Shown: positions 4,715-52,179 of the stretch, in pieces | Layout of the letters: each line of letters begins with the position of its first letter | How positions within the stretch are numbered: the first letter of the stretch is position 1 | Source: Betaproteobacteria bacterium | GTDB taxonomy: Bacteria; Pseudomonadota; Gammaproteobacteria; Burkholderiales; JAEUOS01 | Length of the DNA: 64,000 bases | Assembly: GCA_028292405.1 (NCBI GenBank) | Contig: JAQGMJ010000029.1 | Coordinates: 1 to 64,000 of the forward strand | Direction of reading: 5' to 3' | Position numbers and translations under genes: made by a program | Notes under the pieces: generated by a model | Databases searched by the model: none | The model's input: the letters and a program-made list of their open reading frames with translations, nothing else | Told to the model about the DNA's origin: nothing

Positions 4715-5110
4715 TCAATTGCCTTCGCGCAGCTTGACGCCGCACCTGCCGCAGGCCGGCCGCTTTTCCGCCTTGCCCAGCAGCGAGGCGCCGCAGCGCG
4801 GGCACACCACCTTGCGGTTGGCGACGGCCCAAAAGACGAAGCCGATGGCGAACAGGGTGGAGGGAATGCCGATGGTGCCGGAGTAGAAGGAGGCCACGGC
4901 GACGACCAGGATGGTCAGCGACGGCAATATCAGATAGCGCCAGGCCCATTCGCGGGTGCGCGCGAAGGCCGCCATTTCTTCCGGCGTGAGCGGCGCGGGC
5001 GGCGCCGCCGGGCCGGCTTCGGCGGCCTTGATCTGCTTGTCCTGCGCCTTTTCCATGGCGTCGAACAGCATGTTGTTGAGCTTCTCGCTCAGGTACTCAT
5101 AGGGGTTCAC
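4715..5110 (-). CDS. Zinc-ribbon membrane protein
   Basis: 131 residues starting at a GTG (MNPYEYLSEKLNNML). There is a charged N-terminal half, two hydrophobic segments (YLILPSLTILVVAVASFY and PSTLFAIGFVFWAVA) and a C-terminal double-CXXC ribbon (VVCPRCGASLL and PACGRCGVKL). The four cysteines probably bind one zinc. Function is unknown. It shares orientation with the membrane gene at 4061-4642. Confidence 0.65.
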   Translation of the reverse strand: MNPYEYLSEKLNNMLFDAMEKAQDKQIKAAEAGPAAPPAPLTPEEMAAFARTREWAWRYLILPSLTILVVAVASFYSGTIGIPSTLFAIGFVFWAVANRKVVCPRCGASLLGKAEKRPACGRCGVKLREGN

Positions 5111-5247
5111 GCGAGAGTCCGGGGGAAGGCGGGTAAGGCGCTATTTTCGCATTGTCGGGCAGTGCGTGCAGCAGCGTGCCGGGAAGAAAAAGCCGCTCCT
5201 CCGGCCTCATTCAGGGCGAAGGCGGCCATCGGTGCACGCCTGCGCCT

Positions 5248-6351
5248 TCACGCCGGCGTTTCCGCCTCTTCCTTCGGCAACAAGCTGGCCACGTACTTGG
5301 TCAGCGGCGGCCCGGCGATGATCACCACCACCAGGCGCGCCAGCTGCATCGACATGACGAAGGAGACGTTGACCTTGGCCGAGGCGGCGATGATGGCGAC
5401 CGCATCGACCCCGCCCGGGCTGGTGGCGAGGTAGGCGCTTAGCGGGTCGATGCCGGCGAACACGTGCAGCAGCCAGGCCAGGCCGCCGCAGATGAGGATC
5501 AGCACGAAGGTGGCCAGCGCGATCGGCGCCAGCGCGCGGGCGGCGTGCAGCAGAATCGCGCGGTTGAAGCGCAGGCCGATGCTCCAGCCGACCAGGGCGT
5601 AGCTGATGGCGAGGAACCAGGGCGGCAACTGCAGCGGCATGTCGAACACGCCGTGGGCGATGGCGCCGAAGGCCATCGGCACCAGCACGGAGCCGGCGGG
5701 AATGCGCAGCACCTTGGCTGTTACCGCGCCGGCCACGCCGAGCGCGATGGTTGCCAAAAACCACAGCGGGTCGGTGGGCGGGAACCAGATCACGGCGGGA
5801 ATCAGCGAGCCGCTGTGCGCCACCCAGAAGGTGGAGACCAGCGAGGCCACCACCACCACCATCACCACGCGCAAATACTGCATGAAGGCGACCAGGCGGA
5901 TGTCGGCGCCGTAGGCCTCGCTCATGATCACCATGGTGGTGGCCGCCCCCGGCGAGAGGCCCCAGATGGCGGTGCTGCCGGGGAGGATGCGCAGGCGCGC
6001 CAGCACCCACCCCACCGCGGTGGAGGCGCCGACCACGGCAAGGGCAGTGGCGCCGAGCACGGCCCATTCGGTTTTCACCGCGCCCAGCATGGCGGGCGAA
6101 AAACTGCGCGCGATCAACAGGCCGATCAGGCACTGGCCGAACATGAAGGCCTTGCCCGGGATCCAGAGGTTGGCGCCCATCGCGGCCACCACCACGGCGG
6201 CGGCCATCGGCCCCAGCAGCAGGGCGGCGGGCATGTGCGCCATTTCCAGCAGGCCGCCGAAGAACAAGGAAAGCAAAAGGAGCAGGCCGCAGCGCAATGC
6301 CAAGCCGCGCCCGGCGAGCAGGGGGCGGTGGGACGGCGGGGGGGATTGCAT
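5248..6351 (-). CDS. AbrB-family (ammonia monooxygenase-type) membrane transporter
   Basis: 367 residues from the ATG at 6351 (MQSPPPSHRPLLAGRG), with ten or so hydrophobic helices. The family signature is duplicated: LPGSTAIWGLSPGAATTMVIMSEAYGAD in the first half and LATSPGGVDAVAIIAASAKVN in the second (quoted here only as landmarks near residues 130 and 310). These are typical of AbrB/DUF958 permeases, annotated as putative ammonia monooxygenases but generally thought to be transporters. The frame is open further upstream to 6531, but that extension is Arg-rich and unlike the family. Substrate unknown. Confidence 0.85.
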   Translation of the reverse strand: MQSPPPSHRPLLAGRGLALRCGLLLLLSLFFGGLLEMAHMPAALLLGPMAAAVVVAAMGANLWIPGKAFMFGQCLIGLLIARSFSPAMLGAVKTEWAVLGATALAVVGASTAVGWVLARLRILPGSTAIWGLSPGAATTMVIMSEAYGADIRLVAFMQYLRVVMVVVVASLVSTFWVAHSGSLIPAVIWFPPTDPLWFLATIALGVAGAVTAKVLRIPAGSVLVPMAFGAIAHGVFDMPLQLPPWFLAISYALVGWSIGLRFNRAILLHAARALAPIALATFVLILICGGLAWLLHVFAGIDPLSAYLATSPGGVDAVAIIAASAKVNVSFVMSMQLARLVVVIIAGPPLTKYVASLLPKEEAETPA

Positions 6352-6641
6352 GTTCGAAGGTCTCGGCGGACCGGCGGCCCAGAGGCACCCGCCGCGGCTG
6401 GTCGCCGGCGGGCGCAAGCGCGCATTATAGCGAGTGGGCCCTCGCACCCTGCTTATGGGCACAACTGCCCGACCAAAACCTGTCGAGCGTGTCAGCCGAC
6501 GTCTCCGGACGCAAAGCCTGCAAAAACCCATAGCGGGCCGCGCAGCACGCGCGAGCGGCCGGGCACAGGCTTTGCGGTATGCTGGATAAACAGCAAAACC
6601 CGGGCGCTGGCTTTTTGCCGCGCCGGCCCCACGTCATTCCA

Positions 6642-7166
6642 ATGAGCCACGACGAACCCGCCGATCCCCCCTTGAAGCGCACCCGCGAGCGCGCCACCCT
6701 GCGCGCCATCGCCATTTTCGAAGGCGTCAAGGGCGTGGCCGCGCTGGCCGCCGCCTTCGGCCTGCTCAGCCTGGTGCACCACGACACCAAACGCATCGCC
6801 CTGGCGCTGATCGGCCATTACAACCTGAACCCGGACGGCCGCTACCCCGGCATGCTGCTGCATTACGCGGAGGTGCTGCAAAACGCCAACTTCCGCATGA
6901 TCTTTTTCTTGGCTGTCGTCTACGCCACGGTGCGCATCGCCGAAGGCTACGGCCTGTGGCGCGACCGCGCCTGGGCCGAGTGGCTGGCCGCGCTCTCCGG
7001 CGCGCTGTACATTCCTTTCGAGATCGAGCACCTGATGCACCGGACCAACGCCATCAACGCCGTGGTGCTGCTGGCCAACATCGCCACCGTGGCCTTCATG
7101 GTGTGGCGCCTGTGGAACCGCATGAAGGCCAAGCGCGCCGGCGCGCTGGCTTCCGCGCCGGGCTAG
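6642..7166 (+). CDS. DUF2127 family membrane protein
   Basis: 174 residues from ATG 6642 (MSHDEPADPP); an upstream in-frame ATG at 6579 adds 21 unlikely residues. It has a family-like opening (RAIAIFEGVKGVAALAAAFGLLSLVHHD), then helices in IFFLAVVYATVRIAEGYGLW and ALSGALYIPFEIEHL, with a conserved H-RTNAINAVVLLANIA segment. DUF2127 proteins are small bacterial membrane proteins of unknown role. It stands alone and is divergent from the AbrB-family gene. Confidence 0.8.
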   Translation: MSHDEPADPPLKRTRERATLRAIAIFEGVKGVAALAAAFGLLSLVHHDTKRIALALIGHYNLNPDGRYPGMLLHYAEVLQNANFRMIFFLAVVYATVRIAEGYGLWRDRAWAEWLAALSGALYIPFEIEHLMHRTNAINAVVLLANIATVAFMVWRLWNRMKAKRAGALASAPG

Positions 7167-7427
7167 GCTTGGGGGTAGGGCCGGGGCTGCGTCCCTGCCG
7201 CGCCGCTGTCGTCTGCCGCCGCGCCGGTTCCCTCGGGGAAACCGGGCAATGTTCTTCGTGCGCAGACTCCTTCGTCGCGCTGCGCAACATGTTTGCTGAC
7301 CTGGCGAGCCGGATGGCGATCAGCGGCGGCGCGCCGCTGTAGATACCACCGCGCCCGGCCCCGGCTGCCGGTACGGCGCCGGGCATGTGCAGTGCAGCAG
7401 CGCGGCAGCCCGCGATACAGGCGAACC

Positions 7428-7847
7428 CTACCTGGCCGGCACCGTCCGCGTGCTTTCGCGCAGGATGCCGCCGCCGCCCACGCTGCCCTCGGTGGAGCCG
7501 CCGCCGCTCATGCGCGACTCGCAGGCCTGGCGGTCGCCGCCCTTGAGCGCCTCGCAGCGCGCGCGGGCGTTCTGCCGGTAGTCCACCGGGTTGTTGAAGT
7601 CGCCTGCTTTCGCTTGCGCGTAGGCGCGGCCGGCTTCGGTGCGGCAGGTGCCGCGGTCTTCGGTGGCGCGGTTGCTGTCGCAGGCGGCGAGGTCGCGCTT
7701 GTATTGCGCCTGCGCTTGGGCCGCGGCGGATCTGTCGGCGGCATGCGCGGCGGCAGTGAAGGATAAGACACAGGCCAGCGCAAGCGCCAGGCGCGGAGCG
7801 GTGCGACGGACGGGGGCGCCGCGATGAAGAAGGGCAAAAGCAGACAT
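7428..7847 (-). CDS. Small secreted protein with conserved Cys pattern
   Basis: 139 residues starting at ATG 7847, preceded by AAGGAG. There is a signal peptide with predicted cleavage at AAAHA/ADRSA. The mature part is about 100 residues with four cysteines (LAACDSN, GTCRTEAGR, ARCEALKGGDR, QACESRMSGGGS), which could form two disulphides in the periplasm. Similar unannotated proteins are common in Burkholderiales. Function unknown. Confidence 0.65.
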   Translation of the reverse strand: MSAFALLHRGAPVRRTAPRLALALACVLSFTAAAHAADRSAAAQAQAQYKRDLAACDSNRATEDRGTCRTEAGRAYAQAKAGDFNNPVDYRQNARARCEALKGGDRQACESRMSGGGSTEGSVGGGGILRESTRTVPAR

Positions 7848-8109
7848 GTGGACTCCTTGGTGTGCTTCGCGCAATGTCACGAAAGGCGCTACCCAAGCGC
7901 GAACCGCTGGACGGACAATCGAGAAGGCGATGGCGAAGCTGTTGAGCGGCGGCTGCCGCTTGTTTTAATGATGGCCGGGCGACAGCATTGCCGTACGCCG
8001 CAGCCATGGCCGCCGCCGTTGTCCTGCCCGCAGTTGCAGGGTGACGAGAGTAGCCGCATGAATAGACAGCGGCGCGGCGCGCAGGTTGCATCAATGTCGC
8101 GCGGCGCCG

Positions 8110-8137
8110 AAAAAAAAAAGCCCCCGGGCGAGGGGGC
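8110..8137 (-). terminator. Intrinsic terminator
   Basis: Minus strand GCCCCC (8137-8132), loop TCGCCC, GGGGGC (8125-8120), then ten T residues (8119-8110). A textbook rho-independent terminator. Confidence 0.85.
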
Positions 8138-8215
8138 CCAGGGGCTAATCGGACTGTACACAAAGGAGGGGACTACAACAGTCCGAGGAGACAAACCGGT
8201 CGTTAGGATTTTTCA
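8110..8215 (-). ncRNA. Candidate small RNA with anti-Shine-Dalgarno loop
   Basis: On the minus strand an 8-bp stem CGGACTGT (8185-8178) / ACAGTCCG (8157-8150) encloses a 20-nt loop containing CCCCTCCTTTG. That sequence is complementary to AAAGGAGGGG-type ribosome binding sites. It is followed after 12 nt by a perfect intrinsic terminator with ten Us. The nearest upstream minus-strand gene ends 370 bp away, behind a repeat array, so read-through termination is less likely than an independent short transcript. The 5' end is a guess; no clear promoter was identified. The resemblance is to trans-acting sRNAs with CU-rich loops. Confidence 0.5.
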
Positions 8216-8456
8216 ATTCGGACCGCTGTGTCATCGCTGTTTTGTTTGGATGACTGATGACGCAGCGGGTATGCAGGCATCATAGGCGGCAGGTTGCACT
8301 GCCGCAATACCACCAAAGTACTAATGAAGAGCTAGATCGCCGTTGTAGTGCTTACGCGTGGGCGAAGCGTGGGTGCGAGGGTGCGGCGCGGCGGATTCGG
8401 CGCGCTGGTATCGCTATCACGCGTGAGGGCGCCGGTTCAGGTCGCGCACGGCGCGG

Positions 8457-8550
8457 TTTGCGTCGCGCTGCGGCACCGCCTTTTGCGTCGCGCTACGGCA
8501 CCGCCTTTTGCGTCGCGCTGCGGCACCGCCTTTTGCGTCGCGCTGCGGCG
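8457..8550. repeat. 25-bp tandem repeat, about 4 copies
   Basis: Units with core CGTCGCGCTGCGGCACCGCC begin at 8461, 8486, 8511 and 8536, an exact 25-bp period; the last copy is truncated. The array sits directly at the 3' end of the minus-strand gene whose stop codon is at 8559-8561. Confidence 0.85.
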
Positions 8551-8558
8551 ACGTGCCC

Positions 8559-9308
8559 CTAATCGTCGAGCTTGGGCGGCAGCAATATCCAGACAATCAG
8601 CCCGAGCACTAGCAGGCCCGCGCCGATCTTGCCGGCGATGCGCCAGCCGCGCCCGTGCGAGCGCACGATGGTCAGCTCCTGCACCCAGATCACCTCGCAG
8701 GCGCCCTCGCCCTCGTCGGTGCGCACGATGCTGGTCTTGCGCATGCCCCGGGCGGCGCCGTCCTTGAAGGTAGTGTAGTCGGCGAGGTAGCCGCGCACCC
8801 GCACTTCGTCGCCGATGCGCACGTCGCGCAGGCGCCGCGCCACGTCGGGGTCGTCGGTGAGCACGTGGTTGTTCGACATCGAGGCGCCGTCGAACGCATG
8901 CTCCGGCGGCAGCGCCGGCGTGCTCCACCAGCATTCCCATTGCGTGTGGGTGAAGCTGGCGCGGCGGTAGGCGTCGCGGCGCACGTTCTCGCCCCACACC
9001 ACGCAGAGGTCGGCGACGTTGATGTGGTCGCCCCACTCGCGGTGCGCGTAGTCCCACCAGGCCTTGGAATCGTGCAGGCTCACCACCAGGCCGGCGATCT
9101 CATAGGTGTAGCGCGGGTCGATGCGGTAGTCCATCCCCTCGACCTTGGTGTCGAAGGGCTTGTCGCGCGTCGGCCGCTGGTCCGGCTCTTCCAGCGTACC
9201 GGGGTTGAGCTTCTCCGGCGCCGGCAGGTGCTCGGCCATCAACCAGGCGACGACGATCACCAGCAGGCTGCCGATGATGACAAGCTTGACCAGGCGGTCG
9301 GAGGACAT
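8559..9308 (-). CDS. Hypothetical membrane-anchored protein
   Basis: 249 residues with an N-terminal helix (LVKLVIIGSLLVIVVAWLMA) and a C-terminal helix (IGAGLLVLGLIVWILLPP) flanking a soluble domain of about 185 residues. The middle contains a Trp-rich segment (WWDYAHREWGDH, QWECWWSTPALPP) and a beta-rich part with GDEVRVRGYLADY that resembles an OB-like fold. No named family was recognised. It starts 4 bp after the stop of the 72-aa gene upstream, so the two form an operon. Confidence 0.65.
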   Translation of the reverse strand: MSSDRLVKLVIIGSLLVIVVAWLMAEHLPAPEKLNPGTLEEPDQRPTRDKPFDTKVEGMDYRIDPRYTYEIAGLVVSLHDSKAWWDYAHREWGDHINVADLCVVWGENVRRDAYRRASFTHTQWECWWSTPALPPEHAFDGASMSNNHVLTDDPDVARRLRDVRIGDEVRVRGYLADYTTFKDGAARGMRKTSIVRTDEGEGACEVIWVQELTIVRSHGRGWRIAGKIGAGLLVLGLIVWILLPPKLDD

Positions 9309-9312
9309 GCGC

Positions 9313-9531
9313 CTAAGCCGGCCCGCGCGCGTGCCAGTGCCAGGCGACGGCGAAAAACAGCAACGCCGCGATGGCGTAGGACACCACCGCGCTCCAGTAC
9401 TTGCCCGGCTCTTCCTCGCGGTAGATCCAGCCGCGCGACTGCTTGGAAACGGTGCGCCCGCCGGCGAGCGAATAGGCGACGATGCATAGAAACACTACGC
9501 CTATGCCGACGGTCAATGCGCTGGTACCCAT
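9313..9531 (-). CDS. Small two-helix membrane protein
   Basis: 72 residues from ATG 9531, preceded by AGGGGGAAG. There are two hydrophobic helices (ALTVGIGVVFLCIVAYSLAGG and VSYAIAALLFFAVAW) joined by a charged loop QSRGWIYREEEPGKYW. It lies 4 bp upstream of the membrane-anchored gene at 8559-9308 and is probably co-expressed with it. Function unknown. Confidence 0.6.
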   Translation of the reverse strand: MGTSALTVGIGVVFLCIVAYSLAGGRTVSKQSRGWIYREEEPGKYWSAVVSYAIAALLFFAVAWHWHARGPA

Positions 9532-9864
9532 GGCTTCCCCCTGCGCATGCCGATGATGGATGTTTTCTCCTGGGCGTGGCGCTTGCGGAAGATTGTGCGG
9601 CAAGCGCAGGAGGAATGCAAACCGGGCGGCGCGGTCCGCCCGCGCGGCACATGGGGGACACCTTCCGCACGGCTTTGTCCGCGGTTGCAAACCGGCCTCG
9701 GGAATAGGCACGGATTTCCCGCCTGTTCCAGCGACGGGATTGCCGGGCGCGCCCATAGTATGGGCTGGTTCCAACGACTTCGTCCGCATCACCCAGATCA
9801 ACATCTTCGCGCACTTGCGCACTTCCGGCAGCGAAGCCGTCCGCCTACTCTTATTGGAGGCCCC
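9532..9864. promoter_or_regulatory. Divergent intergenic region with a 15-bp palindrome
   Basis: 333 bp between the minus-strand small membrane gene and the plus-strand cyclic-di-GMP operon. It contains the perfect odd palindrome GCCCATA-G-TATGGGC at 9751-9765, a possible operator. The operon promoter is expected here, but no clear -35/-10 pair was picked. Confidence 0.4.
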
Positions 9865-9939
9865 GTGAAGACAAGATACCTGCCTTTGCTTTGCGCCGGC
9901 GCGTTCCGCGCCCTTGCGGCGAGCGCCGATCATGCATGA
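9865..9939 (+). CDS. 24-aa signal-peptide-like leader ORF coupled to the EAL gene
   Basis: GTG at 9865 preceded by TTGGAGG at good spacing. It encodes MKTRYLPLLCAGAFRALAASADHA and stops at 9937-9939. The stop lies inside the first codons of the EAL gene, whose ATG is at 9932, so translation of the two is probably coupled. It looks like the stump of a secreted protein or a true leader peptide. The upstream ribosome site is better than any directly before 9932. Confidence 0.4.
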   Translation: MKTRYLPLLCAGAFRALAASADHA

Positions 9940-11632
9940 GGCCGCGCCGCCTGTTGCGCCATTGCCCGGCGCCGCCGCATGCGCCGACGACACGCCGGCC
10001 AGCCCGCCGCTGACGATTCCGGACGACGCCGACCCGACGCAAGACGAGTTGCGCCGCGCCATCGCGGAGGAGCAGTTCGTGCTGCACTATCAGCCCAAGG
10101 TATCGTGCAGCACCGGCAAGATCACGGGCATGGAAGCCCTGGTGCGCTGGGAGCATCCGCTGCGGGGCCTGGTGCCGCCCGACCGGTTCATTGCGCAAAT
10201 GGAGGAATCGGGCCTGATCATCGCCCTGGGCGCCTGGGTCCTGCGCAGCGCCTGCCGGCAAACCCGCGGCTGGCAGGCGGCGGGCCTCGGCGGGCTTCCG
10301 GTCGCCGTCAATCTTTCGGGCCGCCAGCTGCAGTCGGACAACATCTTCGAGACCGTCGCCGCAGCCCTGGGTGAAAGCGGACTGGAGCCGAAATTCCTCG
10401 AGCTGGAATTGACCGAGAGCTTCCTGGTCCACGACCCCGAGCAGGCGGTCGCGACGTTGACGCGGCTCAAGCAATTGGGCGTGAAGATTTCGGTCGACGA
10501 CTTCGGCACCGGCTACTCCAGCCTCTCCTATATCAAGCGCTTTCCGCTCGACGCCCTCAAGGTCGACCGCGCATTCGTGCGCGACATTACCGCCGATCCG
10601 AGCGATGCCTCAATCACGCGGGCGATCATCAACCTGGCCCACAACCTGAAATTGACGGTGGTCGCCGAAGGGGTGGAGACCGAGGCGCAGCTCGGGCTGC
10701 TGATTGCCAACGACTGCGACATGATCCAGGGCTATTACTTCAGCAGGCCGGTGGCCGCCCCCGCTTTCGAGGCGATGCTGCGCGAAGGAAAGAGCCTGGC
10801 CAGCGACTTCATTTCCAGCCAGCGCGCGGAGCGCACCCTGCTGCTGGTCGACGACGAGGAATACATCCTGAGCGCGCTCAAGCGCATCCTGCGGCGCAGC
10901 AACTACCGCGTGCTCACCGCCGACAGCGCGCTCCAGGGCTTGCGCCTGCTGGCGGAGAACCGGGTCGACGTGGTGGTCTCGGACCAGCGCATGCCGGGCA
11001 TGACCGGCGTGGAGTTCCTGCGCCGGGTCAAGGAAATCCACCCCGACAGCGTGCGCATGATGCTCTCCGGCTATACCGACCTGAAATCGGTGACGGACGC
11101 GATCAACGAAGGGGCGATATACAAGTTCCTGACCAAGCCGTGGGATGACGAACATCTGCTGGCCAATATCGAAGAGGCCTTCCGGCGCAAGGAAATCGTC
11201 AGCGAAAACCGGCGCCTGATGCGGGATCTGGCGCAAACCAACGCGCGGCTGGGCCAGGTGAATGACGAACTGCGCGGCCTGCTGGACGACGGCGCGCTGC
11301 AGGTCAAGCGCGACGAGGCCACCCTGCGGGTGGTGCAGGAAATGCTGCAGCACGTTCCGGTGCCGCTGATCGGCATCGACAGCGAAGGGATGATCGCGGC
11401 TTCCAATCTGGCGGCGGAATCCGCGTGCGGCGCGGCAGCGCCGATGATTGGCCGGTTCATCGGCGAATGCCTGCCGGCCGACCTGGTCGGATGGTTCCAC
11501 GGCGATCGCGCGCAAGCCTGCGACTGCGTGATAGCGGGCACGGCCTACCAGGTCAGCAGCCGGGCCATGGGCCGGCGCTCGGCTTCCGGCGGCGTGCTCC
11601 TGATGCTGGATCAGACGGGAGTGCCGGCATGA
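9932..11632 (+). CDS. EAL-domain cyclic-di-GMP phosphodiesterase with receiver and PAS-like domains
   Basis: 566 residues from ATG 9932. The EAL domain (about 30-280) has MEALVRW, NLSGRQL, the Glu in ELELTES, DDFGTGYSSL, and AEGVET with a downstream Gln, so the metal and catalytic residues look intact. A receiver (about 298-415) follows, with phospho-Asp in VVSDQRMPG and the RpfG-like KPWDD. The last 110 residues form a degenerate PAS-like domain (VPVPLIGIDSEGMIAASN). It should hydrolyse cyclic-di-GMP under control of phosphorylation, most likely by the PAS kinase encoded downstream in the same operon. Its stop overlaps the next ATG as ATGA. Confidence 0.9.
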   Translation: MHEAAPPVAPLPGAAACADDTPASPPLTIPDDADPTQDELRRAIAEEQFVLHYQPKVSCSTGKITGMEALVRWEHPLRGLVPPDRFIAQMEESGLIIALGAWVLRSACRQTRGWQAAGLGGLPVAVNLSGRQLQSDNIFETVAAALGESGLEPKFLELELTESFLVHDPEQAVATLTRLKQLGVKISVDDFGTGYSSLSYIKRFPLDALKVDRAFVRDITADPSDASITRAIINLAHNLKLTVVAEGVETEAQLGLLIANDCDMIQGYYFSRPVAAPAFEAMLREGKSLASDFISSQRAERTLLLVDDEEYILSALKRILRRSNYRVLTADSALQGLRLLAENRVDVVVSDQRMPGMTGVEFLRRVKEIHPDSVRMMLSGYTDLKSVTDAINEGAIYKFLTKPWDDEHLLANIEEAFRRKEIVSENRRLMRDLAQTNARLGQVNDELRGLLDDGALQVKRDEATLRVVQEMLQHVPVPLIGIDSEGMIAASNLAAESACGAAAPMIGRFIGECLPADLVGWFHGDRAQACDCVIAGTAYQVSSRAMGRRSASGGVLLMLDQTGVPA

Positions 11633-11826
11633 ATCCGCTCCCGGCCGAAGCGGCAGCCGCCGGCTTTTCAATCCCGCCCGGCGCGCCCGCCGGCGCACCG
11701 GACGAAGACGCGTGCCGCCTGGTGCTGCAACGATTGTCCTTCCTGTTCCGCCGCAATGCCGCCGACGTCACCAGCCAGGCGCTGTTCCGCGCGCTGTATG
11801 AATACCGCACGGGAACGCGCTCATGA
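11629..11826 (+). CDS. 65-aa protein of unknown function in a c-di-GMP operon
   Basis: Starts with ATGA overlap on the EAL gene and ends with ATGA overlap on the HDOD gene, so it is a genuine operon member rather than a gap. The first 28 residues are Ala/Pro/Gly-rich (MNPLPAEAAAAGFSIPPG). The rest looks helical with alternating basic and hydrophobic residues (CRLVLQRLSFLFRRNAADV, ALFRALYEYRTG). No family was recognised. A small adaptor between the phosphodiesterase and HDOD protein is a reasonable guess only. Confidence 0.6.
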   Translation: MNPLPAEAAAAGFSIPPGAPAGAPDEDACRLVLQRLSFLFRRNAADVTSQALFRALYEYRTGTRS

Positions 11827-12671
11827 CCGTTCTCGGCGTCGACCAGGTGATGCAATCGGTGCGCCAGCTGCCCTCGCTGTCGAGCGTGGTGATGCAGTTG
11901 CTCGAGCTGTTCAGCCATGACGACCCCGACATTGCCGCCGTCGGCCGGGCTTTCGACCGCGACCAGGCGCTTGCCGCGCGCGTGCTGCGCATCGCCAACT
12001 CGCCTTTTTACGGCATGCCCGGCCAGGTGGTGTCGGTGCACAACGCCATGGTCGTGCTGGGCCAGCGCAACCTGCACAACCTGACCCTGGCGGCGGCGGT
12101 CACCGGCAGCTTTCCGGTGTTCGAGTCGGGCTGGTTCGACCAGAAGATATTCTGGCAACACAGCCTGGTGGTCGGACAAAGCGCCGATGTGCTGGCCTCC
12201 TGCATCGGCCGGCACCAGGAGTCGGCCTTTACCGCGGGCCTGTTGCACGACATCGGCCGGCTGGTGCTGGTGACCTGCTTTCCCGAGCATTCGCGCAAGG
12301 TGGCGCTGCACCAGAAGACGCACGATTGCTCCTGCAGCCAAGCCGAACACGAAGTCCTCCGCCTCGACCATGCCCTGGTGGGGGCGGCCCTGGCGCAGCG
12401 CTGGAACTTCGCCGAGGTCATTCAGGAATCCATCGCCCTGCATCACGAACCGTCCGGCAATCCGCCCGGAGCCGCCGGACTGGCCGACCTGGTGCATCTG
12501 GCCGACGTGACCGCGCACGCCCTGGACCTCTGCGGCGACCCCGGCGAAATGGTGCCCCGGCTCGATGCCGAAGCCTGGGGACGCCTTGGCATGCCATGGC
12601 CAAACTACCGCCATGCACTGGCCGAGATCGAGCGCCGCAGTGCCGACGCGGGCTCGTTGCTCGCCGCCTGA
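11823..12671 (+). CDS. HDOD-domain protein
   Basis: 282 residues. The HDOD domain covers about 10-210: LPSLSSVVMQLLELF at the start, RVLRIANSPFYG, then VLGQRNLHNLTLAAAV, FWQHSLVVGQ and the HD-like LLHDIGRLVLV. A second His in LDHALVGAALAQRW and SIALHHEP follows. HDOD proteins are catalytically inactive HD relatives that act as scaffolds in signalling, often beside EAL, GGDEF or kinase genes, as here. It sits 25 bp upstream of the PAS kinase. Confidence 0.85.
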   Translation: MTVLGVDQVMQSVRQLPSLSSVVMQLLELFSHDDPDIAAVGRAFDRDQALAARVLRIANSPFYGMPGQVVSVHNAMVVLGQRNLHNLTLAAAVTGSFPVFESGWFDQKIFWQHSLVVGQSADVLASCIGRHQESAFTAGLLHDIGRLVLVTCFPEHSRKVALHQKTHDCSCSQAEHEVLRLDHALVGAALAQRWNFAEVIQESIALHHEPSGNPPGAAGLADLVHLADVTAHALDLCGDPGEMVPRLDAEAWGRLGMPWPNYRHALAEIERRSADAGSLLAA

Positions 12672-12696
12672 CCCTACTAGCCGAACCAGGATATTC

Positions 12697-14556
12697 ATGG
12701 CACATGATCTCTCATACCAGCCGCAAGCCGAAGCGCTTGATGAAAGCGACACCGGCTTTCGCACCCTCGCCGAAAGCACCCACCTGGGTATCGCCCTGCA
12801 TCGCGGCGGCAGGATCATCTACGCAAATCAAGCCGCCGGGGACATGACAGGTTTTTCGGTTGCCGAACTGTGCGCCATGGAGTTCTGGGAAATGGCGGTC
12901 CCGGCCGAACGCGAGGCAATTCGCGAGCGCGGCCGCCGCAGGAGCGAGCGCAAGAACAAAGCGGCGTCGACCCGCTTTCAGAGGCAGCTTAATACCAAGG
13001 ATGGCCGGGAGTGCTGGGTCGATGTGACTGCCTGCGTCATCGATTTTCAAAAACAAGAGACTGTGCTTGTCACCTATGTGGACATCACGGAACTGAAACG
13101 CGCCGAAAAGGCGCAGTACCAGTTTCGCGAAATCCAGACCCAGGTGATCGAGGGCAGCCCGGTGCCGACTTTCGTGATCAACGCCCAGCATGAAGTGACG
13201 CACTGGAATCACGCTTGCGAGGCGGTCACCGGAATACTAGCCGGCGAAATGGTGGGCCGCAGCGAGGCCTGGCGCGCCTTCCATTCCGAGGAGCGGCCTA
13301 TCATGGCCGACCTGGTGCTTTCCGGTGCTCCGGAGCAGGCCGTCGAGGCACACTACCGCGGCAAGTCACGCCGCTCGCCCGTGATCGAAGGCGCCTATGA
13401 GGCGGAGGATTTTTTTCCGCATTTCGGCGAGGCGGGGCGCTGGCTGGTATTCACCGCGGCGCTGCTGCGCGACCCGCACGGCAACATCACCGGCGCCATC
13501 GAAACCCTACAGGACGTCACGGAACGCAAGATGGCGGAGTCGGCCCTGCTCACCGCGCAGGTCGATCTGGAGCAATTGGTGGAAAAGCGCACCGCGCAGC
13601 TTGCCCGCGCCAACGAGCAACTCGAGGCCGACGTGGAGCGGCGCCAGCGGACCGAAAGCGAATTGCTCCGGCGCAACTCCGAACTCACCGAACTGAACCG
13701 GCGTCTTGGCGAAGCGCAGGCGCAGTTGCTGCAGTCCGAGAAGATGGCTTCGGTGGGCCAGCTCGCCGCCGGGGTGGCCCACGAGATCAACAACCCGATC
13801 GGCTATGTGCATTCCAACCTGGGCTCGCTGGAGAAATACCTGGCCGACCTGTTCAAGGTGCTGGCCGGCTATGAAGCCGCCGAGCCCGCCATCTCCGGCA
13901 GCCCGGTGCACGCCGCGGCCCTGAAGGAGCTCAAGGACGGGCTGGACCTGGAATTCCTCAAGGAAGACATTCCGGTCCTGATGCGGGAGTCCAAGGAGGG
14001 CATCTCGCGGGTGCGCAAGATCGTCCAGGACCTGAAGGATTTCTCGCGCGTCGACAGCCAGCAGCAGTGGGAATGGAGCAACCTGCACCGCGGCATCGAC
14101 AGCACCCTGAACATCGTTGCCAACGAGATCAAGTATTGCGCCGAAGTCGTCAAGGACTACGGGGACATACCGGATGTCGAATGCCTGCAGTCGCAGGTCA
14201 ACCAGGTATTCATGAACCTGCTGGTCAATGCCGCCCATGCCATCGAGGGCGCGCGCGGCACCATCACCATCAGCACCCGCATGGACGGCGATGACCTGGT
14301 GCGCATCGAGGTCACCGATACCGGAAAGGGCATTCCGCCGGAAAACCTGCAGCGGATATTCGACCCGTTTTTCACCACCAAGCCGATCGGCAAGGGCACC
14401 GGGCTGGGCCTGTCGCTTTCCTACGGCATCGTGCAAAAGCACGGCGGCCGGCTGCAAGTGCGCAGCGTCGTCGGCAAGGGCACCACGTTCAGCGTGAGCC
14501 TGCCGGTGCACAAGTCGGTATCGGCCGGCCCGGCCGAGAAGGAGATGCAAACATGA
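12697..14556 (+). CDS. PAS-PAS sensor histidine kinase
   Basis: 619 residues from ATG 12697 with AGGA upstream. Two PAS domains can be seen (about 20-135, ending [15 protein letters not shown], and about 140-285, ending [14 protein letters not shown]). A long coiled coil (about 285-345) is followed by HisKA with [15 protein letters not shown]-box [13 protein letters not shown] and G-boxes [11 protein letters not shown] and [16 protein letters not shown]. No membrane segment, so cytosolic. There is no receiver on the protein itself; the flanking EAL-REC and REC-HD-GYP proteins are the obvious phosphorylation targets. Its stop overlaps the next gene (ATGA). Confidence 0.9.
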
Positions 14557-51553: not shown

Positions 51554-52179
51554 CGAGCCCGGCGCGCTACAACAGTTGTAGTGCGCCCGGCAGATTTCCC
51601 CTGCGGCCCGGCTTACGGGCTTTCACGGTGCCCACGGGCACCGTGCTTTTTGTTTGGACCGTGAGAAAACGCCCTGAAGTCCCCTTGGGGGACCTTAGAA
51701 ATTTTCGGGATTTGCGCGGACTGCATTTGCGCAACCTGAGAAAACCTGAGGTTTTTTCGTTTTTTCAGTTAGGCGCGAGAGTCCATCTACTACGACTGTA
51801 GTGAGCGAGCTGTGCGCCATCTTCCGAAAATGACAATGAATGATGGTTTTTTCGGAAAAATTTTTGCACCGCCTCAGGCGGGAATTTCTTCGCGTTGGAA
51901 GCTGCGTTGCAACGACACCTCGCCCGCAAACCAGCCTTGCGCCCGGCCGCCTCTTGCACATGTTAAAGAGCCACGCACATCCGCGATAACGCGGGCACTG
52001 GTACCTAACATACGCGAAACGCGCAACTAAGTGTGGTTGATTTTCGCCGCCGTTGTTGACGCTCGCCGGCAAGCGGGGGTATTCTTTGCCGCGTGGGGGC
52101 ATCGCAGATTCCCCGCTGTCGGCAAGGCGCTTGGGCGTCCAAATTCTGCTTCTACCCGTCTTCAACGGAGTCAGAAGCC
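51554..52179. other. Intergenic region rich in inverted repeats
   Basis: About 625 bp without a convincing gene. It contains the palindrome CTACAAC-A-GTTGTAG within 51561-51587, the terminator at 51624-51655 and an AAAACC-TGA-GGTTTT hairpin near 51740-51755. An inverted repeat TTCCGAAAA (51822-51830) / TTTTCGGAA (51849-51857) also lies here. Part of this could be the remnant of a small non-coding element. Confidence 0.45.
51624..51655 (+). terminator. Intrinsic terminator
   Basis: Perfect inverted repeat CACGGTGCCC (51624-51633) / GGGCACCGTG (51636-51645), then CTTTTTGTTT. It ends the microprotein gene group. Confidence 0.85.

Follow-up and report, generated by a model that had tools for sequence, protein, structure and literature searches.

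The window, by which we mean the whole 64,000-nucleotide stretch of betaproteobacterial DNA that was analyzed, contains a hairpin followed by a terminator in a region devoid of genes, and the question that it raises is whether these elements belong to a small regulatory RNA and, if so, by which of its parts such an RNA would recognize its targets. A first-pass annotation made from the sequence alone had proposed a trans-acting sRNA acting on ribosome-binding sites. Our analysis indicates that the locus is probably the gene for an Hfq-type base-pairing sRNA, a strongly diverged paralogue of the RF02278 or double-hairpin family that would block the ribosome-binding sites of mRNAs; the proposed mode of action is thereby strengthened through homology to an experimentally studied family, which also means that an RNA of this kind is already known.

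The hairpin, its terminator and the family to which they point

On sequence reading, the candidate is oriented on the minus strand in the 8110-8215 region (Table 1). The stem of hairpin 1 is perfect, as first described, albeit composed of 9 Watson-Crick pairs (U8186-U8178 with A8157-A8149) rather than 8; the loop, 8177-8158, does span the 20 nt originally reported and contains the CU-rich CCCCUCCUUUG at 8171-8161; and the terminator was likewise correctly recognized, with a hairpin at 8146-8119 and ten Ts at 8119-8110. The minus-strand order is 5'-...CCUAACGACCGGUUUGUCUCC UCGGACUGU UGUAGUCCCCUCCUUUGUGU ACAGUCCGA UU AGCCCC..., followed by the terminator and the ten Us ending at 8110. The closest plausible ORFs, 7428-7880 and 8559-9308, leave a gap of about 680 bp around the locus, in keeping with the 600 bp free of genes noted before. 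The interval 8110-8215 suits the short form of the RNA, but the conserved UGUCUCC at 8193-8187, the likely promoter and a 5' hairpin (8307-8223) had been overlooked. The predicted folding energy of the 98-nt RNA is -39.1 kcal/mol (z -4.77), better than that of all 200 dinucleotide shuffles; hairpin 1 by itself has a fold z of -3.86, and CCCCUCCUUUG in the loop of the short form has a mean unpaired probability of 0.90.

Table 1. Coordinates of the features of the sRNA locus in the window
Feature	Position	Strand	Basis or remark
Predicted sigma-70 promoter, TTGCGG (8307-8302) N17 TATGAT (8284-8279)	8279..8307	-	By eye; start near A8272
Degenerate PhaR-like site TGCACTGCCGCA, differing from TGCRNYGCASMA by 1 mismatch and with a break in one of two essential triplets	8295..8306	+	Motif scan
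5' hairpin predicted for the long transcript, with 12 pairs and a 20-nt loop	8223..8268	-	z -5.13; P 0.98 if start is 8272
Strand ACAGCGGUCCGA, able to take the place of the 3' arm in hairpin 1 by pairing with the 5' arm	8218..8229	-	Predicted duplex, -20.2 kcal/mol
Site 1, UGUCUCC, the family's conserved 5' anti-RBS pairing site	8187..8193	-	Identical in 31/31 rows of alignment A1
Hairpin 1, 9 bp and 20-nt loop	8149..8186	-	Fold predictions, P 0.97 in the short form
CCCCUCCUUUG in the loop, counterpart of family Site 2 (canonical CUCCUCCUUUG)	8161..8171	-	Family comparison
Intrinsic terminator with ten Us	8110..8146	-	Terminator scan

The best match to the locus is RF02278, the Betaproteobacteria toxic small RNA that comprises S17 of Bordetella and bdhR1 of Burkholderia; the match runs over the full length of the model (1-64) and scores 38.6 bits, with an E value of 7.1e-7 on 131 bases, 3.6e-6 on 661 bases and 7.1e-6 over all 5.5 Mb of the genome. 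The toxic RNAs are said to owe their name to the Kimelman paper. Rfam lists no entry for the locus at the gathering level and, because the score falls below the gathering score of 50, the window copy is, judging by its sequence, a divergent RF02278 homologue and not a formal member. Among the family features present are a 5' UGUCUCC that is single-stranded and leads into a stem from U8, an unpaired CU-rich loop complementary to ribosome-binding sites (75% CU, with CCUCC) and a terminator hairpin immediately after hairpin 1, and the conserved pairing site UGUCUCCUC stands directly 5' of the stem in exact register. The next match after RF02278 is ncS54 (RF02871), which is alike in layout and scores a weak, sub-threshold 25.3 bits, and a match to RF00519 (MmgR) at 14.9 bits, against a gathering score of 41, was discarded as noise.

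In its own genome, the family model retrieves a canonical copy (L002, UGUCUCCUCCACCCUCCUCCUUUGGUGGAUUAAGCCC; 76.9 bits), a second divergent copy (42.1 bits) and the window copy; the other matches have E values of 0.005 or worse, and at this loose cut-off 11/14 control genomes also match, as compared to none at E 0.001. The window copy retains UGUCUCCUC, the outer stem pairs U-A and C-G, the loop core CUCCUUUG and the AUUAGCC linker; its inner stem is swapped on both arms, from the canonical UCCACC/GGUGGA to UCGGACUGU/ACAGUCCGA, so that the stem is both new and longer. In the second divergent copy (L003, G000:C88:66339-66394), UGUCUCCUC is kept ahead of a hairpin with a 4-nt UUCG loop and without Site 2, and there is no PhaR-like site. 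The S17 group is delimited by 100% identity over S17S positions 2-28, which are reported to be totally conserved; the canonical copy resembles this group, whereas the window copy differs in stem and loop, its hairpin 1 departing from that of canonical copies.

With RF02278 and the double-hairpin RNAs ncS03, ncS05, ncS27 and ncS62 of Burkholderia cenocepacia (bdhR1), the window RNA shares the 5' UGUCUCCUC, a hairpin 1 from U8, the CU-rich loop, the short AUU linker, the terminator and the presence of several copies per genome; it differs from them in a hairpin 1 of 9 bp with a 20-nt loop (6 bp and about 10 nt in the family), in the sequence of the stem and in the degenerate operator of its promoter. 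With S17 of Bordetella pertussis it has in common Site 1, a promoter of the type TTGC..-N17-TA...T and a longer primary form, predicted here at 163 nt and shown for S17 at 190.

Across the family, 57/61 unique members have a stem starting at U8, as read by a stem-requiring script whose table of pair types is therefore biased towards pairing; the remaining 4/61 sequences, among them L045, which begins CGUCUCC, were left out. The loops of these 57 members hold CCUCC in 33 cases, CUCC without CCUCC in 7 and neither in 17, so that the conserved CCUCC loop envisaged at the outset is found in a little over half of the hairpins and is altered elsewhere. In the MAFFT alignment A1 of 31 distinct hairpins, from which the doubtful rows L044, L106 (probably a chance match of the pattern) and L126 had been removed, UGUCUCCUC is invariant, an invariance partly built in because the searches and scripts required most of the motif. 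Compensatory changes of the stem, the other mark of conservation envisaged, are scarce: a strict count on A1 gives weak covariation, two-sided changes being limited to one pair, in 2 cells; paired cells make up 98.2%, 7/500 shuffles reach the covariation score, and the enlarged stem arm of the window copy is misplaced by MAFFT and there counted as unpaired. Site 1 together with the exact window stem is present in 1/399 genomes of the order, its own, and what the family keeps is a stem at the same position with a changed sequence. On these comparisons, a hairpin at a given place and the pairing tail are the constants of the family and the hairpin sequence is its variable; the loop, at first taken for the pairing element, varies, and the conserved and experimentally important site is the 5' tail UGUCUCC. 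The window RNA, a divergent paralogue with an enlarged loop in a known sRNA family, is in itself an ordinary find, and one that illustrates the free change of hairpin 1 alongside a fixed 5' pairing tail.

Promoter, folding and predicted targets

The promoter predicted upstream is credible because many family members share this promoter type. A TTGC -35 element is paired with a -10 element in 38/57 family members (TTGA in 4, TTGG in 3 and TTGT in 5 under the same rule), looser promoter-like sites precede 36/56 members against 13.4 expected, and the S17 promoter, in the available text of its report, reads TTGCAT N17 TACTAT. A scan whose criterion was fixed after the promoter had been noticed returned 4 such sites on both strands of the 64 kb, and a stricter standard promoter scan returned none at 8307-8279.

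Transcription from 8307-8279 would probably produce an RNA of about 163 nt (8272-8110) in which a 5' hairpin and a linker precede Site 1 (UGUCUCC), followed by hairpin 1 and the terminator. For the 163-nt RNA starting at 8272, hairpin 1 is predicted with P 0.97 and an open loop with 0.90; starts at 8268-8275 leave the competing strand tied up in the 5' hairpin, so that hairpin 1 forms (P 0.95-0.97), RNAs beginning at 8264 or 8250 favor the alternative pairing (P 0.97-0.98), and with 5' ends further upstream, at 8290 and 8320, hairpin 1 is predicted to misfold. The duplex between 8218-8229 and 8175-8186 is equalled by 1/2000 upstream shuffles and has no equal among the 62 members tested (among which L011, L012, L016 and L113 had an inner motif repeat as their anchor). 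The upstream strand 8229-8218 may, according to these models, add a second, structural switch, which we offer as a side remark because it is seen in the window copy only.

A cut in the linker immediately ahead of UGUCUCC, as in S17, would turn the primary transcript into a short, stable RNA of some 84 nt, whose free 5' tail UGUCUCCUC, aided by the CU-rich loop, would pair with GGAGACA/GAGGAGACA ribosome-binding sites and block initiation on many mRNAs, probably those for transport and catabolism. As to Hfq dependence and RNase E processing, the sequence offers no more than compatible features, namely the ten-U tail and the GGUUUGUCUCC junction. The genome itself contains 257 GGAGACA-N1-8-ATG sites, as compared to 7 for the reversed pattern, and 11 loop-fitting AAAGGAGG-N2-9-ATG sites, as compared to 7 reversed, the Shine-Dalgarno content being unmatched in this control; with 257 versus 11 start sites, it is the tail and not the loop that has a large target pool. 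By analogy with S17, the window RNA should therefore block ribosome-binding sites mainly via its 5' tail, and the loop may add strength, as the second site modestly does in S17.

The available text of the reports on these relatives describes S17 as Hfq-dependent, with a 190-nt form that originates at a sigma-A promoter and is shortened by RNase E to 67 nt; there, Site 1 of S17 represses BP2158, as demonstrated through compensatory changes in E. coli, S17S has matches near the gene start in 70/91 candidate targets (92 in the abstract), 55-80% of the pairings predicted for the B. cenocepacia double-hairpin RNAs cover the start region, and overexpression of ncS27 slows growth, its silencing having the opposite effect (PMC11722255, PMC5688073, PMC4603805, PMC7011215). 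In the same available text, RF02278 family RNAs are reported to inhibit the growth of E. coli when cloned, and S17S itself left exponential growth unimpaired.

A PhaR-like motif in the family promoters

The promoter shared by many family members reads TTGCRNYGCACAA-N10-TATAAT, the first half of which matches the published PhaR site, and the start of its spacer is fixed, even though spacers are normally unconserved (informative columns G 0.85, C 0.82, A 0.79, A 0.85). Exact TGCRNYGCASMA occurs at most 200 nt upstream of 35/56 members against 0.2 expected from shuffles, and in 0/56 of the downstream control; the background amounts to 10 such sites in 149,170 flanking bases. A second set, consisting of 60 members fetched afterwards of which 5 were dropped because Site 1 was not at the expected place, gives 18/55 for the exact site against 0.35 expected, with 2 in the downstream control, and 32/55 against 4.5 expected when at most one mismatch is allowed. 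The composite of TTGCN3GCA and a -10 element is found in 29/57 and 13/55 members against 0.17 and 0.12 expected, and none of these motif counts represents independent events because the members are related sequences. By family label, the exact site is present in 10/12 labels of the first set and 10/21 of the second, 14 labels together; in the members examined it is absent from f43 (0/8 over both sets), f50 (0/5), f48 (0/3), f33 (0/2), f14 (0/2), several one-member labels and f21 (0/4, with one mismatch in 3 of these). The RF02278 members whose upstream regions were surveyed include L002, L011-L039, L106-L135 and L136-L195.

According to the literature, PhaR of Bradyrhizobium diazoefficiens binds TGCRNYGCASMA (PMC6201568), PhaR/PhbF of the Betaproteobacterium Herbaspirillum seropedicae binds TG[N]TGC[N]3GCAA, with a footprint (PMC3206438), in Sinorhizobium meliloti the sRNA MmgR is under repression by PhaR/AniA, one of whose listed sites, in the row just before phaP2, contains TTGCAACGCACAA (PMC12542648), and PHB releases PhaR in Ralstonia/Cupriavidus and Herbaspirillum (PMC9049629, PMC11332829, PMC4873508). 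The same TTGCAACGCACAA also precedes the canonical sRNA of the present genome. MmgR, with its sRNA promoter repressed by PhaR/AniA, is a parallel to the family-wide motif, from which it differs in that it belongs to the Alphaproteobacteria, acts on phasin expression and has no known homology to the window RNA. In the literature searched, which lay mostly outside subscription journals, we recognized no paper linking PhaR to sRNAs of the S17 or bdhR1 type. In the B. cenocepacia paper, three of four double-hairpin RNAs are said to have an upstream motif in common, and part of the promoter motif may hence be in print already, without a named regulator; within the portions available, the authors working on S17 postulate an unknown repressor of its promoter, and the Burkholderia authors call the regulation of the accumulation of these sRNAs unknown.

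We regard it as an evenly balanced proposition that much of the double-hairpin family forms a PhaR regulon, with PhaR on the -35 element and released by nascent PHB, from which the window copy escaped upon losing its operator. The PHB-sensing repressor would sit on the -35 element of TTGCRNYGCACAA-N10-TATAAT; stored carbon would pull PhaR off, the sRNA would be switched on and the translation of functions in carbon uptake and catabolism would be shut down. If true, a global sRNA brake on carbon uptake would be tied to the carbon store, in parallel to the PhaR-MmgR pair in Sinorhizobium; the motif proposes a regulator for S17 and bdhR1 and makes their control testable.

As for the window copy, its promoter has TTGCGGCAGTGCAACC, with a palindrome core GGCAGTGCA in which one of the two conserved triplets is broken and shifted by 3 nt. 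Neither TGCRNYGCASMA nor TGCN3GCA is found in this promoter, and the canonical sibling has an exact site, TGCAACGCACAA. The best 12-mer has one mismatch and lies on the other strand, and about 8% of shuffled 200-nt upstream regions also hold a site with at most one mismatch; the upstream region of L189 carries an identical 12-mer, in the same orientation too. From its sequence, the site is probably degenerate and the copy either uncoupled from PhaR or weakly bound.

Distribution, competing readings and neighboring features

The genus of the window is represented by this genome alone and its taxonomic family by five genomes; a DNA search recovers the window copy in 1/5 of these, and no orthologue in the 4 others. 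RF02278 is detected at E <= 1e-4 in at least 214/399 genomes of the order and above threshold in at least 144/399, both counts being lower bounds because the filters applied were stricter. The four family relatives have canonical RF02278 copies in 3/4 and divergent ones in 4/4 at E <= 0.05; on sequence, L042, L043, L044, L045 and L046 were judged genuine divergent paralogues, and L047, L048 and L049, once their sequences were read, chance matches. Comparable divergent paralogues are found again in the remaining genomes of this family and elsewhere. A pattern scan of the genome collection for an enlarged hairpin with Site 2 found no relative with the stem-loop layout of the window; its 19 matches, none titled Betaproteobacteria and one titled 'Proteobacteria bacterium', were treated as chance because about 10 are expected by chance (an estimate). 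Neither the locus nor the canonical 33-mer had a match in the plasmids searched, and nine proteins from 4715-14556 revealed no orthologous context at the divergent paralogues of the relatives, save for one kinase-domain match. Further paralogues, with an enlarged hairpin 1 starting UUGUCUCCUCGGGUC, lie at G052:C1:1798091-1798167 and G293:C40:170905-170981, and two genomes with family label f7 (G010 and G058) have nine and eight RF02278 matches per genome, Burkholderia reportedly having three to five.

A copy with no orthologue in relatives, with the PhaR-like operator inside its promoter broken and with a score 38 bits under that of the canonical copy could be a decaying paralogue, unexpressed or non-functional, whose work is done by the canonical copy; random decay, however, would be expected to hit the stem first, and here Site 1 is exact, the 9-bp stem, the loop Site 2 and the ten-T terminator are intact and the fold stands out from its shuffles, all of which renders this reading unlikely. 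Less probable still, by about half, is that the hairpins are the 3'-UTR terminator of the 8559-9308 mRNA, any sRNA being released from that mRNA: the gene shares the strand and ends about 350 nt upstream, with no terminator-like site detected between gene and hairpins on the minus strand by the terminator scan, yet the locus has a family-type promoter-like site of its own at 8307-8279 and is homologous, over the full length, to sRNAs that are transcribed independently, and it is with the 5' ends at 8290 and 8320 that hairpin 1 is predicted to misfold. A chance hairpin plus terminator is very improbable: a perfect 9-bp stem on its own is indeed unremarkable here, the GC-rich window having 44 of them with loops of at most 20 against 12-24 in five shuffles (a comparison biased towards pairing because segment ends are set by the stem), but the locus rises above chance by virtue of its RF02278 match, significant at the scale of the genome, and UGUCUCCUC stands in exact register.

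Around the locus, which we continue to read as the gene of a base-pairing sRNA, tandem 25-bp repeats (GCGTCGCGCTGCGGCACCGCCTTTT) occupy 8452-8549, between the sRNA and the 8559 gene. The minus-strand protein encoded at 8559-9308 has no Pfam match; it is found in 27/399 genomes of the order, its own included, with 41-49% identity in eight genomes and weaker similarity in 18 more, and in 0/4 of the family relatives; a search for related loci found nothing. Two proteins with Pfam assignments, EAL-receiver and HDOD/HD, are encoded on the plus strand within 9914-14556, followed at 12565-14556 by a putative PAS-sensor histidine kinase recognized by eye. Further away, at 52094-52149 on the plus strand, the window contains a chrB-b RNA motif (RF03086) that, at 42.3 bits, lies above its gathering score.
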